From the NCBI GenBank assembly GCA_024760545.1, contig CP060501.1:1773501-1837500 (forward strand): a stretch of DNA of 64,000 bases. Reading direction: 5' to 3'. Positions 4,580 through 64,000 of the stretch are shown piece by piece (within the stretch, counting starts at the first letter, position 1; each line of letters starts with the position of its first letter). The stretch comes from Nitrospira sp. (GTDB lineage Bacteria; Nitrospirota; Nitrospiria; Nitrospirales; Nitrospiraceae). Both the position numbers and the translations under genes were made by a program. The notes beneath the pieces were generated by a model that worked only from the letters and a program-made list of their open reading frames with translations, did not search any database and was not told where the DNA came from.

Positions 4580-6409
4580 TTATGATGTAGCGACCTCGAC
4601 GATGCGAAACATACCCGCTTCCATGTGCAGGAGGAGATGGCAGTGAAAAGCCCACGGCCCAGGGGCATCGGCGCTGATCAGGACGGACAGCCGTTCAGCT
4701 GGTTTGACGACTACCGTATGTTTTCTTGGAAGATATGCGCCTGAGCCATTTTCCAGGTGCATCCACATTCCGTGCAAGTGGAGCGGATGCTCCATCATTG
4801 TGTCGTTGACGAACGTGAGCCGAAGGCGCTCGCCCGAGCGCACACGAATCGGCTCCGGCGCATCCGAATACTTTTTGCCATCGAACGACCACATGTAACG
4901 TTGCATATGGCCGGTAAGATGGATCTCGATCTCCCGCTCCGGCGCTCGTTCGTCTTGATAGGCAACGAGGCTTTTCAAGTCGGTGTAAAGCAACACGCGC
5001 CTGGAGTTCTGATCCAACCCTCTGCCCGGTTCGTGCATCCGATTTTTGGAATACTCCGCGACTGTTTGATTGCCGGTGCCATGATGATCAGGGCCGTGCT
5101 TGACCGGCGTAGTGCCCGGGATAGGGGAACTGCGCGGAAAGGCCATCTCCTTACCTGGCCTCGTATGTCTTGCCTGTCCATGCGTGAGGCCATGATCTGC
5201 TACGCTGTCATGGGACGGTGTGGTATCTGACCCCTCCATAGCATGGCCGGTGTGGCCATTGCCATGATCCGTCATCCCCATATCTTCCATAGTTCGAAGC
5301 GGACGGGTCCGCCGCTCAGGAATTTCTCCTTCCATGCCGGTCCTGGGAGCGAGGGTTCCACGAGCGTACCCGCTCCGGTCCATGGTTTCGGCAAAGATTG
5401 TATGCGCACGATCCTCATTGGGCTGGACGATGACGTCATATGTTTCTGCAGGCCCAAAGCGAAACTCCTCGACCCTGACCGGCTGGACATTCTGACCATC
5501 GGCCTGTACCACCGTCATGGTCAATCCAGGGATGCGCACATCATAAAACGTCATCGCGGCAGCATTGATGAAGCGCAACCGCACTCGCTCTCCCGGTCGA
5601 ACAATCCCGGTCCAGTTACCGGCAGGCGGCAGACCGTTCATCAGGAACGTGAAGGCGGATCCCGTCACATCGGCGAAGTCTGTTGGGTCCATCCGCATCT
5701 GGTCCCACATCAGATAGCTCTGCATGGCCGGCCACAGTCCCCAGCGCGCTGCGTCTGAGAGAAACTCCCGACCGTCACGTTTCTGGAAGTTGTAGTAGCC
5801 CGATAATTTCTTGAGGTTATTGAATATGACTTCGGATGATTCAAAGCTCCACTCCGAGAGCATCACGACATACTCCCGGTCATACTGAAACGGTTCCGGT
5901 TCGATGGGGTCTAGAATCAGCGGTGCGTACATACCTTGCAACTCTTGGCCACCGGAGTGGCTGTGATACCAGTAGGTGCCGCTTTGTTTGACGGGAAACT
6001 GATAGGTGAAGGTCGTTCCGGATTCAATGCCGCCGAAGCTGACGCCCGGCACTCCGTCCATGTGGGAAGGCAAGAGTAATCCATGCCAGTGAATCGAGGA
6101 AGTTTCCTTCAACTGATTCCTGACGCGCAGTGTTACCTCTTGCCCTTCTTTCAAACGGATGAGCGGACCTGGGATCGTCCCGTTGATCGTCATCGCCACG
6201 CCGGTCCTCCCCTCCAGCGTAACGACTGCCTCACTAATAGTGAGGTCGATAACGGATCCGCTCAGTATCGAGGCTTGTGCACCTCGCTGGGTCATAGGGA
6301 CGGGCGGGGCAGAAGCACACCCGGGGATCAACCGTAGCATTGCGACCGATAGCCCAAACTCCCCCAGACGCTTCAAAAGGAAGCGTCTCGAAATCAGTTC
6401 ATCACTCAT
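4580..6409 (-). CDS. copA: CopA-type multicopper oxidase, Tat-exported
   Basis: Periplasmic multicopper oxidase thought to oxidise Cu(I) to Cu(II) and bind copper. It has 609 residues. The N-terminus carries a twin-arginine signal (SRRFLLKRLG) followed by LIPGC, so it may also be lipidated at Cys31. Copper ligands are visible: HWHG at 107-110, HSH at 149-151, HPLHLHG at 541-547 and HCH at 589-591, with type-1 ligands Cys590, His595 and Met600. A Met/His-rich insert (about 375-440, many H, M, D and G) is probably a copper-binding loop. It sits 37 bp after the copper ATPase and just before copB. Confidence 0.95.
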   Translation of the reverse strand: MSDELISRRFLLKRLGEFGLSVAMLRLIPGCASAPPVPMTQRGAQASILSGSVIDLTISEAVVTLEGRTGVAMTINGTIPGPLIRLKEGQEVTLRVRNQLKETSSIHWHGLLLPSHMDGVPGVSFGGIESGTTFTYQFPVKQSGTYWYHSHSGGQELQGMYAPLILDPIEPEPFQYDREYVVMLSEWSFESSEVIFNNLKKLSGYYNFQKRDGREFLSDAARWGLWPAMQSYLMWDQMRMDPTDFADVTGSAFTFLMNGLPPAGNWTGIVRPGERVRLRFINAAAMTFYDVRIPGLTMTVVQADGQNVQPVRVEEFRFGPAETYDVIVQPNEDRAHTIFAETMDRSGYARGTLAPRTGMEGEIPERRTRPLRTMEDMGMTDHGNGHTGHAMEGSDTTPSHDSVADHGLTHGQARHTRPGKEMAFPRSSPIPGTTPVKHGPDHHGTGNQTVAEYSKNRMHEPGRGLDQNSRRVLLYTDLKSLVAYQDERAPEREIEIHLTGHMQRYMWSFDGKKYSDAPEPIRVRSGERLRLTFVNDTMMEHPLHLHGMWMHLENGSGAYLPRKHTVVVKPAERLSVLISADAPGPWAFHCHLLLHMEAGMFRIVEVATS

Positions 6410-59114: not shown

Positions 59115-60485
59115 CTAGAAGAGAGTACGCACACTGACCGTACCTAAGTGCACAAAGGCATGGTACGTCCCGTGGACGGTCGGATTCAAATTGTCGACAA
59201 CGGTGCGCGATTCATAGAACCATTCCTGATAGGCGAGATCCAGTCCCATGCCCTTCGGCCACAGAGCCGACTTTCCGCTGCAAGGAATGACGCCCAGAAA
59301 TCGCCCGGCTCCCTTGCAAAGGAAACCAGTGCCAAGAGATAAGGTATGAGCCGTCAAGGAGATAGTCGCGGGGTTGAACGTTCGACCAGGGACAGGGTCC
59401 TCTGTATACGTATAGCCTGAACGCACCGCGACCTCCCAGTACGGTAGCCATCGTGGATTCAGCCACTTATGCTCGGTTCCTAGTGCAATCACCGGTACAT
59501 TATTCCACTGTTGAGGCTGGGGAATCGTGACTCCGTTTGAGAGGTGGATATCAAGATTCTTATTCAAACTCCAACCGACATATTCGACATTGAGCTCGAC
59601 CTTCCACTCTCTCTCGCTGGTGCGTACCGGCCAGATAGCGATGCCTCCGGTAACTATGTGCGGCAACACAAGATCGGTGGAGGCATCGGCCGCCTTCGCG
59701 CCATTGACTAACAGCAACCCATGCAAAGGCAGGACTGCCTGACTGCGATAGACCAGCCCGACAGACAGGATCGGCTTACCGGCCTCATTTCTCACGGGGG
59801 TATACAACAAACTGGCCGTCACGCCTGCCGCGGTCCCATTCCCGTTCAGTTCGATAGACGCTCCAGCTGGGATCCCCAAGGCTCCGGCGCTTACCTGTTT
59901 CTGCTCCACATGTCCTTCGCCGAGAAAGCTCACAAACGTGTAAATATCAGCACTTACACCTACTGACAGATCTTCGCTTACCTTGTAAGCAATGGTGGGC
60001 TTGATAGCGATCAGCGGGAGTGCTGCCGAGGTCACAGCCGTGTTGAACGGGCCATCAACCGGGTACCGGGTATTCAAGCCGTACGGCGATGTTAACCCGA
60101 TGCCGACCGTTACTGGCGAGAGAATGGGCAATCCAATGGACGCAAGATTGGCACTCAGGTAAAAATTACTGGGAGGAGGCCAGTTCACGCTTCCGTTGAA
60201 GTCGCCACGGCTATCAAGACCTGTCGGGCTTTTGAATTTGACGGATCCCCCGAGCAAATTTAGCCCAACGATGCTTTGGACACCTGCTACTTGGGTCAAC
60301 CCGGCCGGGTTGTAGTGGATGGCTGATGCATCATCGGCTTCTGCCGCGAATGCATTGCCCTGTCCTGCGGCGCGCGCTCCCTGAGGCTGAAAGCGAAGGG
60401 CTTGGGCACCGGCCACCGTTGGTTCCAGGAGAGAATACGAGAGGATGAATACAATGACGAGCCTACCGATGAGCCATGCTTGCAT
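59115..60485 (-). CDS. fadL: FadL/OMPP1-type outer-membrane transporter
   Basis: 456 residues with a signal peptide (about 1-28). The FadL N-terminal hatch is seen in QPQGARAAGQGNAFAAEADDASAIHYNPAGLTQVAG (about 32-67). The C-terminus ends in an aromatic residue (VSVRTLF). FadL proteins import long-chain fatty acids and other hydrophobic molecules; in Sinorhizobium FadL takes up long-chain acyl-homoserine lactones. Here the gene diverges from a luxR gene, and the 214-bp region between them holds the sequence also found before luxI, so it may belong to the same regulon. Confidence 0.92.
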   Translation of the reverse strand: MQAWLIGRLVIVFILSYSLLEPTVAGAQALRFQPQGARAAGQGNAFAAEADDASAIHYNPAGLTQVAGVQSIVGLNLLGGSVKFKSPTGLDSRGDFNGSVNWPPPSNFYLSANLASIGLPILSPVTVGIGLTSPYGLNTRYPVDGPFNTAVTSAALPLIAIKPTIAYKVSEDLSVGVSADIYTFVSFLGEGHVEQKQVSAGALGIPAGASIELNGNGTAAGVTASLLYTPVRNEAGKPILSVGLVYRSQAVLPLHGLLLVNGAKAADASTDLVLPHIVTGGIAIWPVRTSEREWKVELNVEYVGWSLNKNLDIHLSNGVTIPQPQQWNNVPVIALGTEHKWLNPRWLPYWEVAVRSGYTYTEDPVPGRTFNPATISLTAHTLSLGTGFLCKGAGRFLGVIPCSGKSALWPKGMGLDLAYQEWFYESRTVVDNLNPTVHGTYHAFVHLGTVSVRTLF

Positions 60486-60590
60486 CCGGACCTTGGCACC
60501 CTGCTAAATTATTTGCCCCGTCTCACTCTTAGGGATGATCTTCTCATAACAGGCGAAAGTAAATAGGGAGATGAGGCGGGCGTATGGGGA

Positions 60591-60626
60591 CAATCGGCCC
60601 TATATATGATATTTAAACGGCCCTAT
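60591..60626 (+). promoter_or_regulatory. putative LuxR-binding region between fadL and luxR, with direct CGGCCCTAT repeats
   Basis: CGGCCCTAT occurs at 60595-60603 and 60618-60626, 23 bases apart. The first lies in CAATCGGCCCTATAT, a 15-bp sequence that recurs exactly in reverse orientation before luxI (62362-62376). It does not match the canonical ACCTG...CAGGT lux box. Confidence 0.6.
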
Positions 60627-60699
60627 CATGCTTTTCATCTGATTTTTTCATAACTCGTATGGTATATAGTCACGTCCCCAAAGGGCAGGAGGGTCTCTA

Positions 60700-61518
60700 A
60701 TGGCTCATACATCGACAAAACAACCTTTCCCGCGGACTGCCTTCGACGCTCTCTCCAAGTCTGAGTGCAGGAACTTTCTTGAAGTCCTCCACTACGCGAT
60801 GCAGGCAGAGACTCCGGATCACGTGCGGGACGTGCTCGTTCTATTCCAAAACCATTTCTCCTTCACGAGGGCCTTAGGGGGGCTTGCTCGGCTCGGGCCA
60901 GATCGAACCTTTGCTGGATTCAGTAATGTCGTCAACGCCAGTTATCCGGATGAATGGCTCTACATGTACTGGAAAAATGGCTTTGCTGACGTCGACCCGG
61001 TATTCAAGTCGGCTTTGAAATCGCCAGGCACGCAACATTGGCGAGAGATCTATCAACACATGTCTTCCGAGAAAGAACATGAGTTTATCGCCACGGCGCG
61101 GCAATTTGGTCTCTGTGATGGCATTACAACAGGCTCAGTCGATCAGGCCTGTGGAGTTGCTACTTTTTGTTCGTTCGCCAGTGAACATGCTCTCGACGCG
61201 AAACGATTGGTTCCACTCGTCGAATACGCAGGCTATTACATTCATATGGCCCTGCTCAGAACCGCTCCCAAATCTGTGTCGCAAACAGATCGATGCGTCA
61301 AAGAGCTTTCCTCGCGAGAAGTCACGATCCTCAATTGGATGAAGAACGGAAAAACCAATTGGGAAATCGGCAAGATTCTGGGAGTCAGTGAGCGAACTAT
61401 ACGATTCCACATTGAGAGCATCTTCTCCAAACTAGAGGTGACTTCCCGCTCCCAAGCGGTTGCAACCGCCATAGAACACGGGCTACCCGCCCTCCATGGG
61501 TTGCCGACCGCCATTTAG
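60700..61518 (+). CDS. luxR: LuxR-family quorum-sensing regulator with autoinducer-binding domain
   Basis: 272 residues. Autoinducer-binding domain at about 35-185 with the usual residues: Trp86 and Tyr90 (EWLYMYW), Asp99-Pro100 (DVDPV) and Trp114. C-terminal LuxR helix-turn-helix at about 205-265 (LSSREVTILNWMKNGKTNWEIGKILGVSERTIRFHIESIFSKLEV). GGAGGG precedes the ATG. It faces luxI convergently and diverges from fadL. It should bind an acyl-homoserine lactone made by the neighbouring synthase. Confidence 0.93.
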   Translation: MAHTSTKQPFPRTAFDALSKSECRNFLEVLHYAMQAETPDHVRDVLVLFQNHFSFTRALGGLARLGPDRTFAGFSNVVNASYPDEWLYMYWKNGFADVDPVFKSALKSPGTQHWREIYQHMSSEKEHEFIATARQFGLCDGITTGSVDQACGVATFCSFASEHALDAKRLVPLVEYAGYYIHMALLRTAPKSVSQTDRCVKELSSREVTILNWMKNGKTNWEIGKILGVSERTIRFHIESIFSKLEVTSRSQAVATAIEHGLPALHGLPTAI

Positions 61519-61533
61519 GCATTCAATTCGCAC

Positions 61534-61553
61534 TAGCGGAGTCCAAACCGCTA
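61534..61553. terminator. weak hairpin between convergent luxR and luxI
   Basis: TAGCGG and CCGCTA pair around eight bases in the 52-bp gap. No U-run follows. A weak bidirectional terminator is possible. Confidence 0.3.
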
Positions 61554-61570
61554 CCCTATCACCGAAGCAG

Positions 61571-62326
61571 TTAGGCTGCGCGCACCAGCAGTCGGTCTTC
61601 TGCCAATTGTGCATATTCCGCTGCATCACTTTCTTGGCCCAGTACTGGTCGGCATCCGTATTCCGGCTTGGGAACCAGTGTTGTCGTCGTCAACCAATCC
61701 AACATAGCAGGACGACACGTTGAGGCTTGAGATCTAAATTCGTCCAGATCGAGCAACCCCCCGATAGAAAAAACCTCAGCTGGAGGCAAAGCTACTGGCT
61801 CCCCTATGGCCCGGCATGGCCATCCCATGCGCTGGACAACCCGCAAAAGCCTGTGTTCCACCACCATATATGTATAGCGGACCTCATGAAGCAGACACCA
61901 TTGATACATCCCTTTGAAGATCGCTTTCATGAGCCTTGCAGAAAGGCCACGATCTGCGATCGCTGGATCAACGGCCAGTCGAGTAATTTCCGCCGTATCG
62001 ATTTGCTTTCGAACACGATGGCTCCCCACAAGGCAGGCGCTGAATTCACTCTCCAGCATGAACGGGACAGGCGCATGGGTCATGCGGACTAACCCAAGCA
62101 GTCTGGTTTCATCCGCGAATATCCCGATTGAGGTACTCCAAGTATCGTACACATCGGCTTCGAGCCGGTCGGCCCGCTCAGGCACCCACTTCAGCCGTTC
62201 AGCAAATACGCGATGCCGCAATCGATACGCCTGAGTGAGGTCCTCCTTGGTTTCGAGTGTCTTGACGAGAAACTCTCCCTCATAGAAGGCAATTTCCTTT
62301 GCCTCTCCGGCCGCGAATGCTTGCAT
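61571..62326 (-). CDS. luxI: LuxI-type acyl-homoserine-lactone synthase
   Basis: 251 residues, about 40-50 longer than most LuxI. Conserved residues are present: Arg37/39, Phe41 and Trp47 (RLRHRVFAERLKW), Glu56, Asp58 and Asp61 (EADVYD), Arg81 (LGLVRM), Phe89 (PFML), and Glu113 and Arg116 (EITRLAVDP). It should join an acyl group and SAM into an acyl-homoserine lactone; the chain length cannot be read. The extra length is C-terminal (about 180-251), without homology I recognise. A related GNAT of exosortase systems is an alternative, but the luxR neighbour argues against it. AAGGAG precedes the ATG. Confidence 0.88.
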   Translation of the reverse strand: MQAFAAGEAKEIAFYEGEFLVKTLETKEDLTQAYRLRHRVFAERLKWVPERADRLEADVYDTWSTSIGIFADETRLLGLVRMTHAPVPFMLESEFSACLVGSHRVRKQIDTAEITRLAVDPAIADRGLSARLMKAIFKGMYQWCLLHEVRYTYMVVEHRLLRVVQRMGWPCRAIGEPVALPPAEVFSIGGLLDLDEFRSQASTCRPAMLDWLTTTTLVPKPEYGCRPVLGQESDAAEYAQLAEDRLLVRAA

Positions 62327-62361
62327 ACTGTCTCCTTTCAGTATGGCCTGATGCGGAGCCC

Positions 62362-62376
62362 ATATAGGGCCGATTG
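62362..62376 (-). promoter_or_regulatory. putative LuxR-binding site upstream of luxI
   Basis: ATATAGGGCCGATTG is the exact reverse complement of 60591-60605 before luxR. It lies 36-50 bases before the luxI start. It is part of a local inverted repeat GCCC-ATATA-GGGC (62358-62370). Confidence 0.6.
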
Positions 62377-62547
62377 TCTAGTAGGGGAGGCGAATGGAAC
62401 CATTTCAACTAAGGAAACGTCACCTGGCGGACCCGCCAGGTGATTTTCCGTCCGCAATCACGTAGATAATGACGATACAACTAGATGCTGCGGTTTCGGC
62501 GGCTTTGGTGGAACTCAGGCAAGAAGACCGGAAAAAAGGAGGTACGC

Positions 62548-63351
62548 GTGACAGAAGGCAGGACAAAGTTTCAACTGTTGGACGGGGGACTCCGCCCAAC
62601 CCCAGCCCTGTCAGTCACCCAGTCAGTTCGACCGCTCAAGGAATCCCTCGGCGTGTGTCAATTGGAACCTTGCGCGGGTGAACTGACGATCGCGTTCAAA
62701 GCGACCGAACGCCGATTGCATAAACTATTGGAAGATCGTACCCGGATTGGTCGAGACTTGCATGACTGCGTGTTGCAATCGCTGTATGCCATTGGCCTTA
62801 CTATTGAAACCTCTCAACGGACCCGGAGTAATCACTCAGTGGAAACCAAAGAAACCGATAGCCGGATGATCTGGCAGATCAATCAACTCATTCATGAAAT
62901 CCGCGGGATGATTCACGAATTGGAGTCCGGTACCGTCCAAGAGTTTGACTTGTCCTCGGAACTCAACACACTATGCACGACCTATGAGCAAACAAACCGG
63001 TTGCACATGAAGCTGGATCTTCAGCGCAGCGCCATTGAGGTGTTGACGAATGAGGAAGAGCGCGAGATCTTGAATATCGTCCGAGAGGCTCTCAGTAACT
63101 GCGCTCGCCACGCTCAGGCGACCCGAGCCGTGGTCTCGATTCGCATGAAAGAAACGAGAATTCGCGTCAGCATCTCCGACGATGGTATTGGGTTTTCCAC
63201 GGCTGTAGGGCAACCACGTGGATACGGGCTTATCAATATGGAAGCTCGAGCCAAGAAACTCGGCGGGAGATTGTGGGTGCAGTCGAAGAGTGGAGGAGGC
63301 ACGCAAGTCATTGCGGAGTTTTCATTGGAACCCCTTCTCACCCCTGTATGA
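62548..63351 (+). CDS. soluble NarL/DegS-type sensor histidine kinase
   Basis: 267 residues from a GTG preceded by AAAGGAGG; a frame from 62485 has no such site. No membrane segment is visible, and the first 45 residues are variable. HisKA_3 dimerisation helix with phospho-acceptor His72 (RIGRDLHDCVLQSLYAIGL), then HATPase_c with NCARHAQAT, SDDGIGF and GYGLINMEARAKKLGG. It should phosphorylate the response regulator whose ATG overlaps its stop. Lack of a sensor domain suggests a cytosolic partner or small-molecule signal. Confidence 0.9.
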   Translation: MTEGRTKFQLLDGGLRPTPALSVTQSVRPLKESLGVCQLEPCAGELTIAFKATERRLHKLLEDRTRIGRDLHDCVLQSLYAIGLTIETSQRTRSNHSVETKETDSRMIWQINQLIHEIRGMIHELESGTVQEFDLSSELNTLCTTYEQTNRLHMKLDLQRSAIEVLTNEEEREILNIVREALSNCARHAQATRAVVSIRMKETRIRVSISDDGIGFSTAVGQPRGYGLINMEARAKKLGGRLWVQSKSGGGTQVIAEFSLEPLLTPV

Positions 63352-64000
63352 AACAACCATCGACCAGCATCGTGCTTGTGGATGACCATGAGATGGTCCG
63401 CAGGGGGCTGCGCGCCCTGCTGCACCTTGAACCGGATATGACGATCGTGGGAGAGGCCGGGACTATCGCGGACGGTGTGGCGATCGTTGAGCGTCTCAAC
63501 CCTCAGATGGTCCTGCTTGATGTGAAACTTCCCGACGCTTCAGTCACTGAAGCCTGCCGACGGCTTCTGGCCGTTGCACCGAAGCTGCGGATTCTCGTCC
63601 TCACCAGTTACGCCGAGGATACCACGGTGATGGCTGCCGTTCAGAACGGGGCGCATGGATATGTGCTCAAGGATGTCCGCATGGATGACCTCATCCGTGC
63701 CATTCGCACCGTCGCCACCGGTCAGGGCTATCTGGACCCACGAGTGACCCAGCAGGCGCTCCACTGGATTCGGACCAGCTCACATCTGGGCGTGACTCCC
63801 CAAGGAGTCTCCCGATTATCCCCGCAGGAACGCCTCATTCTGCCTCTCCTGGCGGAAGGAAAAACAAACAAAGAGATTGCGGTCCAGCTTCGTTTGAGCG
63901 ATAAGACGGTGAAAAATTACCTGGCGAATATCTTCGATAAGCTGCATGTCAAACGTCGAACGGAAGCCGTCGCCTGGTTTATGAAGGAAACACATGTGCC
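63348..64000 (+). CDS. NarL/FixJ-family response regulator, cut by right edge
   Basis: About 217 residues are visible; the frame is open at the end of the window. Receiver domain with acidic pocket (VDDHEM), phospho-acceptor Asp58 (VLLDVKLPD), Thr in VLTSYAED and Lys in GYVLKDV; LuxR-type HTH at about 155-210 (LSPQERLILPLLAEGKTNKEIAVQLRLSDKTVKNYLANIFDKLHV). The visible part nearly equals the family's usual length, so only a few residues are missing. Coupled to the kinase by ATGA. Confidence 0.93.
   Translation, partial: MKQPSTSIVLVDDHEMVRRGLRALLHLEPDMTIVGEAGTIADGVAIVERLNPQMVLLDVKLPDASVTEACRRLLAVAPKLRILVLTSYAEDTTVMAAVQNGAHGYVLKDVRMDDLIRAIRTVATGQGYLDPRVTQQALHWIRTSSHLGVTPQGVSRLSPQERLILPLLAEGKTNKEIAVQLRLSDKTVKNYLANIFDKLHVKRRTEAVAWFMKETHV

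Follow-up and report, generated by a model that had tools for sequence, protein, structure and literature searches.

A Nitrospira luxR-luxI locus with a canonical lux box, a second conserved DosR-box-like site and a FadL-family neighbour

The locus described here lies in a 64,000-nucleotide stretch of Nitrospira sp. contig CP060501.1 (hereafter, the window), part of a genome of 4,814,360 bp (4.81 Mb) in two contigs, and comprises fadL, luxR and luxI together with a histidine kinase (HK) and a response regulator (RR). Judged by its genes and sites, it is a normal LuxR/LuxI autoinduction circuit with its own lux box, to which several features are added. By analogy with related Nitrospira, from which production of acyl-homoserine lactones (AHLs) and autoinduction are known, it would be an AHL quorum-sensing locus of a Nitrospira nitrifier.

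The reading favoured here, to which a probability of about 0.45 is given as a whole, assigns LuxR to the lux box, a DosR-type RR to a second site and its half-site relative, and re-uptake of the signal to FadL. LuxR-AHL would act, as NspR1 does in a related organism, at the lux box between luxI and the divergent HK-RR operon. A 15-bp repeat would form part of a second regulatory site, namely a DosR-box-like dyad in the divergent fadL-luxR promoter, with a weaker half-site placed just past the luxI transcription start. The most likely binder of the dyad would be the DosR/NarL-type RR encoded beside luxI, which could modulate luxR and fadL from upstream and act on luxI from a roadblock position, probably as a repressor, thereby joining a two-component signal to quorum sensing. 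The FadL channel, a stable partner of the module, would probably let long-chain AHLs re-enter the cell. The gene content and order, the lux box, the dyad, the leader element and the co-occurrence of fadL with luxI on which this rests are all read from sequence.

The lux box upstream of luxI

Although the preliminary description of this locus held the canonical lux box to be absent, ACCTGGCGGACCCGCCAGGT is present at 62422-62441; it was missed in that description, whose interval stopped 46 bases before the box. Nearly all related loci carry ACCTGGCGNNNNCGCCAGGT, or a close variant, ahead of luxI, the clear exceptions being L106 and one locus cut at a contig end. The box is conserved among relatives, while its palindromic centre varies. 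NspR1, the LuxR protein of a sludge Nitrospira, acts via ACCTGGCGGTTCCGCCAGGT, located 81 bp before nspI and common to the divergent gene; it binds and activates through this box, and in vitro binding required RNA polymerase (PMC8553950). The two boxes differ in central bases only and, since the near-identical NspR1 box has been shown to be bound and activated, the LuxR-AHL site of the window is very probably its canonical lux box. No lux box was found before fadL in any of 68 fadL-luxR intergenic gaps, and direct control of fadL by LuxR is therefore not supported.

Two side observations concern this region. Six loci with a longer gap between luxI and the kinase (L034, L036, L038, L062, L077 and L081) hold two lux boxes there. 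In addition, the outer symmetry of ATGGNNCCAT (Table 1) survives a central AA to TT change, and this element could be an operator as well as a probable -10 region.

The 15-bp repeat and the dyad in the fadL-luxR gap

The preliminary description was right that CAATCGGCCCTATAT occurs before luxR/fadL and, in reverse, before luxI. The copies at 60591-60605 (+) and 62362-62376 (-) are the only two in the genome, where about 0.004 would be expected by chance under a first-order model; frequent occurrence in unrelated intergenic regions, which had been named as a reason to discount the sequence, is not what the genome scan gave. Identity between the copies extends to 17 bp (GACAATCGGCCCTATAT). The second CGGCCCTAT reported 23 bases further on was likewise located, at 60618-60626, and L108 has two tandem dyads in its fadL-luxR gap. 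Exact identity of both sites over 14-15 bp is confined to the window's species, the two sites of its relatives being similar but non-identical.

The 15-mer corresponds to the right-hand part of the dyad ATGGGGACAATCGGCCCTAT plus two bases. This dyad belongs to a family of inverted repeats of ~20 bp, of the TAGGGMC-N4-GGCCCTA type, obtained by iterated expectation-maximisation motif fitting on fadL-luxR gaps. The fitted block is a 20-bp imperfect palindrome, ATAGGGCC-ATTT-GGCCCTAT, which reads TAGGTCC-N4-GGACCTA in other lineages and usually lies 77-111 bp before the luxR match. At a threshold of at least 12 bits, 57 of the 68 gaps between fadL and luxR in related loci contain it. In a held-out test, with the matrix trained on closer relatives only, the dyad exceeded 10 bits in 28 of 34 gaps of a distant group vs 1.0 in shuffled gaps. 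Among 18 close relatives, no other non-coding stretch of the gap is as conserved as 60583-60602 (0.84 vs a mean of 0.62), and a second peak lies near 60645. The dyad is a candidate operator common to luxR and fadL. A conserved second operator in this position, weakly echoed in the luxI leader, appears to be undescribed in the open literature.

A genome-wide dyad regulon was rejected: in 79 Nitrospira genomes, three pattern searches returned mostly the fadL-luxR locus and otherwise background, the reversed-pattern control being poorly matched, with TAG/CTA words rare. Of the 13 strict matches in the genus, 10 are at the locus. No convincing alternative palindrome was found in the loci that lack the dyad. 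Elsewhere (L160-L163), dyad-like CTAGGGACATTCAGCTCTA (ATAGGGATATTCAGCTCTA in L163) precedes a 413-aa gene, itself followed by a PAS-kinase-like gene, by 24-25 bp in three genomes, and occupies the corresponding place in a fourth. In G019 (L202:3556-5917), remnants of luxI and luxR accompany a diverged FadL (54%) and a dyad, CTAGGTACATTTGGCTCTAC at 5010, beside a LuxR solo.

The FadL channel and its association with luxI

The fadL product matches Pfam Toluene_X (E 2e-28), and its predicted structure (mean predicted local distance difference test score, pLDDT, 71.8) has E. coli FadL crystal structures as its top matches (Foldseek E 1e-26). Its NPA motif is invariant in 30 orthologues. In the 79 genomes, counted by hand from tables with ~60% identity as the divide, a FadL of the locus type occurs in 59 of 61 assessable luxI-bearing genomes vs none of 15 assessable luxI-less ones, bearing in mind that these genomes are related and that linked genes can vanish in one deletion. 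G038, G043 and G044, whose contigs end in the locus, are omitted from these counts; with them, the figures become 59/62 vs 2/17. G003 has luxI and luxR, and neither fadL nor the dyad. The conservation of FadL next to luxR throughout the genus, together with its co-occurrence with luxI, makes it plausible that the locus copy takes part in AHL uptake, and FadL as a constant neighbour of the module seems not to have been described in the open literature.

Two points weigh against an uptake role. NspI, a Nitrospira LuxI, makes mainly C8-homoserine lactone (C8-HSL; PMC8553950), and FadL should therefore not be needed there. Moreover, in L204 the tail of fadL abuts the tail of the RR gene, an arrangement in which linkage and a single deletion can explain the joint loss of fadL and luxI. 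Chain length in N. japonica, on the other hand, speaks for such a role, as this species makes AHLs of C10-C14, among which C12 dominates (PMC5767232). N. moscoviensis is reported to make C8-HSL (PMC8553950, PMC5767232).

FadL might instead be a general channel for hydrophobic compounds that merely adjoins luxR and has no part in quorum sensing. This alternative is a real possibility, if not the expected outcome: this family transports fatty acids as well as aromatics (PMC7728783), deletions take out neighbouring genes jointly, as L204 illustrates, and a link between FadL and quorum sensing in Nitrospira was not found in the open literature. It fits less well with the ~50%-identical FadL paralogue that is retained at a separate place in luxI-less genomes, whereas the locus copy alone goes with luxI, and with a gene order that is maintained over LuxI divergence down to ~45%.

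In three luxI-less genomes (G051, G023 and G039; loci L207, L209 and L210), the slot between uvrC and HK-RR contains two LuxR-type genes, a LuxR solo and a truncated one with GerE only, along with genes for a cytochrome P450, a beta-ketoacyl synthase and a ~440-aa protein that has no Pfam match; together they may form a small biosynthetic cluster.

Candidate binders of the dyad

The nearest solved relative of the RR encoded beside luxI is DevR/DosR (3c3w, E 2e-48). The helix KTVKNY is present in both proteins, and the three base-contact residues K, K and N, which in DosR are Lys179, Lys182 and Asn183 of the recognition helix (PMC4082495), are kept. Of the 12 bases specified by the stringent mycobacterial DosR consensus GGGACTTNNGNCCCT (PMC6448022), GGGACAATCGGCCCT in the window matches 10; TT is AA. 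The resemblance of the dyad to a DosR box had been recognised before the likeness of the RR to DosR was known. The dyad is found in all 37 loci whose RR is at least 85% identical, with LuxR there at 46-100% identity, vs 13 of 24 others, a distribution that favours the linked RR over LuxR as its binder. The prediction that the linked RR binds the dyad stands at roughly even odds.

Several observations count against assigning the dyad to this RR. The correlation between RR and dyad is barely above that of an unrelated marker, UvrC (Spearman 0.29 vs 0.23), whose identity simply measures relatedness, so that the association may reflect shared ancestry. At least two more RRs encoded in the genome are DosR-like, with KTVKNY/KTIKNY helices, and six loci (L046, L085, L094, L098, L100 and L101) have an intact RR of 62-67% identity without the dyad. 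Binding by the RR here and the sign of its control, like the identity of the binder in general and the cargo of FadL, are what we infer. Loss of the RR as the cause of dyad loss was rejected, the RR being intact in G003 and in several dyad-less loci.

The dyad could also be bound by an unlinked protein, whether a further DosR-like RR, a LuxR solo or a repressor of fadL that responds to fatty acids. The two further KTVKNY/KTIKNY regulators would be suitable candidates, the broken luxI and luxR of G019 leave fadL and the dyad in place beside a LuxR solo, and dyad-like sites recur before the 413-aa gene and PAS-kinase operon in four genomes. This explanation is nonetheless rather unlikely, as the dyad is nearly locus-specific among strict genus matches and shows no genome-wide excess, unlike a broad regulon.

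The element in the luxI leader

Many loci have an element resembling GACAATCRGCCCTAT whose start lies 41-44 nt past the lux box; its distance to the luxI start varies while its register with the lux box holds. In class II lux promoters the lux box overlaps the -35 region; if this applies here, the luxI copy of the repeat probably sits inside the transcribed leader, at about +10 to +25. Dyad-like sites of more than 8 bits occur in 19 of 70 luxI leaders vs 0.7 in shuffles, a similarity that is not circular because the matrix was trained on luxR gaps. Upstream regions on the HK side are not enriched for such sites (2 vs 1.0 in shuffles), and the HK promoter was thus rejected as a third dyad site. 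Weighing against a tie between the two sites, leader and dyad are no more similar within a genome than between genomes (8.45 vs 8.28 +/- 0.18). Concerted evolution of the two within genomes accordingly left no sign, and the perfect 15-mer match is therefore peculiar to the window's species.

This last result also speaks for the view that the 15-bp identity is coincidental and that the dyad before luxR is distinct from the element in the luxI leader, the latter perhaps acting as RNA; some leaders, read by eye, form small hairpins, such as GTCGGC-CCTAT-GCCGAC in L037. Such a coincidence is improbable, given that the dyad scores of leader elements far exceed those of shuffled leaders and that both sites have a common core near CAATCRGCCCTAT, besides the very low chance expectation for the repeat. 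Least probable is the proposal of the preliminary description that LuxR-AHL itself binds the 15-mer or dyad as a second, non-canonical site of one LuxR regulon. In its favour, both copies flank luxR and luxI, the dyad is as long as a lux box (~20 bp), and LuxR and DosR have GerE-type DNA-binding domains in common. Against it, a canonical lux box is present, conserved and unlike the dyad, dyad strength does not track LuxR divergence (Spearman 0.04), G003 has luxR and luxI without fadL or dyad, and the lux box was the sole strong site in the NspR1 work (PMC8553950). What stands of the single regulon once proposed is one conserved unit, in synteny and in FadL co-occurrence; the 15-mer as a LuxR site and direct LuxR control of fadL are not supported.

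Gene content and organisation of the locus

The genes are arranged as uvrC (forward), fadL (reverse), luxR (forward), luxI (reverse), HK (forward) and RR (forward), an order kept in nearly all related luxI-bearing loci. Annotation agrees with the fadL, luxR and luxI genes as first described. In the luxR product both Autoind_bind and GerE score above the Pfam cut-off, and CviR is the best match among solved structures (E 6e-34). The luxI product matches Autoind_synth with E 3e-22 and 79 bits (cut-off 24), with EsaI/LasI as solved relatives. The HK open reading frame, mechanically called at 62485-63351, is likely to start at a GTG after AAAGGAGG, the point at which its orthologues begin. A second LuxR with an AHL-binding domain is encoded at L172:3561-4385, on contig C2 of the same genome (G000).

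Table 1. Features of the locus in window coordinates.
Feature	Coordinates	Strand	Basis or remark
fadL, OMPP1/FadL-family outer-membrane channel, 456 aa, NPA motif N59-P60-A61	59115..60485	-	Pfam, fold, NPA
20-bp imperfect dyad ATGGGGACAATCGGCCCTAT, DosR-box-like, holds most of the 15-mer	60584..60603	.	Top conserved block; 57/68 loci
Second CGGCCCTAT, 23 bp further on, confined to this species, perhaps a weak half-site in tandem	60618..60626	+	Not conserved in close clade
Likely luxR -10 element TATGGT	60658..60663	+	TATGGT/TATAAT conserved there in alignment
luxR, AHL receptor, Autoind_bind + GerE, 272 aa	60700..61518	+	Pfam; nearest solved relative CviR
luxI, AHL synthase, 251 aa	61571..62326	-	Pfam Autoind_synth; solved relatives EsaI/LasI
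17-mer copy GACAATCGGCCCTATAT, degenerate half-dyad in luxI leader	62362..62378	-	Begins 43 nt past lux box
Symmetric ATGGNNCCAT, probable luxI -10 region	62394..62403	-	Conserved shortly past lux box, nearly all loci
Canonical lux box ACCTGGCGGACCCGCCAGGT	62422..62441	.	Match to ACCTG-N10-CAGGT; between luxI and divergent HK
Histidine kinase, HisKA_3 + HATPase, divergent from luxI	62548..63351	+	Pfam; start shared by orthologues
NarL/DosR-type RR, clipped by window end	63348..64000	+	Recognition helix SDKTVKNYLA; nearest solved DevR/DosR 3c3w

Comparison with known systems

The closest counterpart is the NspI/NspR1 pair of sludge Nitrospira (PMC8553950), which has a LuxI/LuxR pair and a 20-bp lux box that is identical outside the centre and shared with a divergent gene. 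There, however, the divergent gene encodes a GGDEF/EAL protein, whereas here it belongs to the HK-RR pair, and neither FadL nor a second dyad is described. In NjpI/NjpR of Nitrospira japonica (PMC5767232), luxI also stands beside luxR and the AHLs are those of C10-C14 mentioned above; regulatory sites and FadL are not discussed in the available portion of that report.

For Sinorhizobium, and rhizobia more generally, import of long-chain AHLs by a FadL-family channel is proposed (PMC5977203, PMC9938287; these cite Krol and Becker 2014), whereas in Nitrospira luxR and fadL are divergently oriented, in synteny over the genus. The mycobacterial DosR/DevR system (PMC6448022, PMC4082495) offers the same GGGAC-N4-GNCCC box architecture and an RR with the same three base-contact residues. 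It differs in belonging to another host phylum; in addition, the kinase in the window has no recognised Pfam sensor domain, and the putative sites are few per genome. We know of no comparable fadL-luxR linkage in rhizobia.

Significance for Nitrospira

Nitrospira are dominant nitrite oxidisers and include comammox organisms. For work on what their AHL quorum sensing controls, the locus supplies two concrete conserved sites, the lux box and the second operator, besides FadL. The channel would explain how poorly diffusible C12-C14 signals re-enter the cell, and the link between an AHL system and FadL would then rest on gene order, beyond mutant phenotype. That the locus represents a genus-wide module of major nitrifiers, in which a DosR-like RR adjoining luxI and its lux box acts on one operator serving both the receptor and a dedicated FadL importer, is doubtful as a complete statement; if true, synthesis, sensing and re-uptake of the signal would be wired together with an environmental two-component input at a single locus, through which a redox or nitrogen signal might reach quorum sensing.

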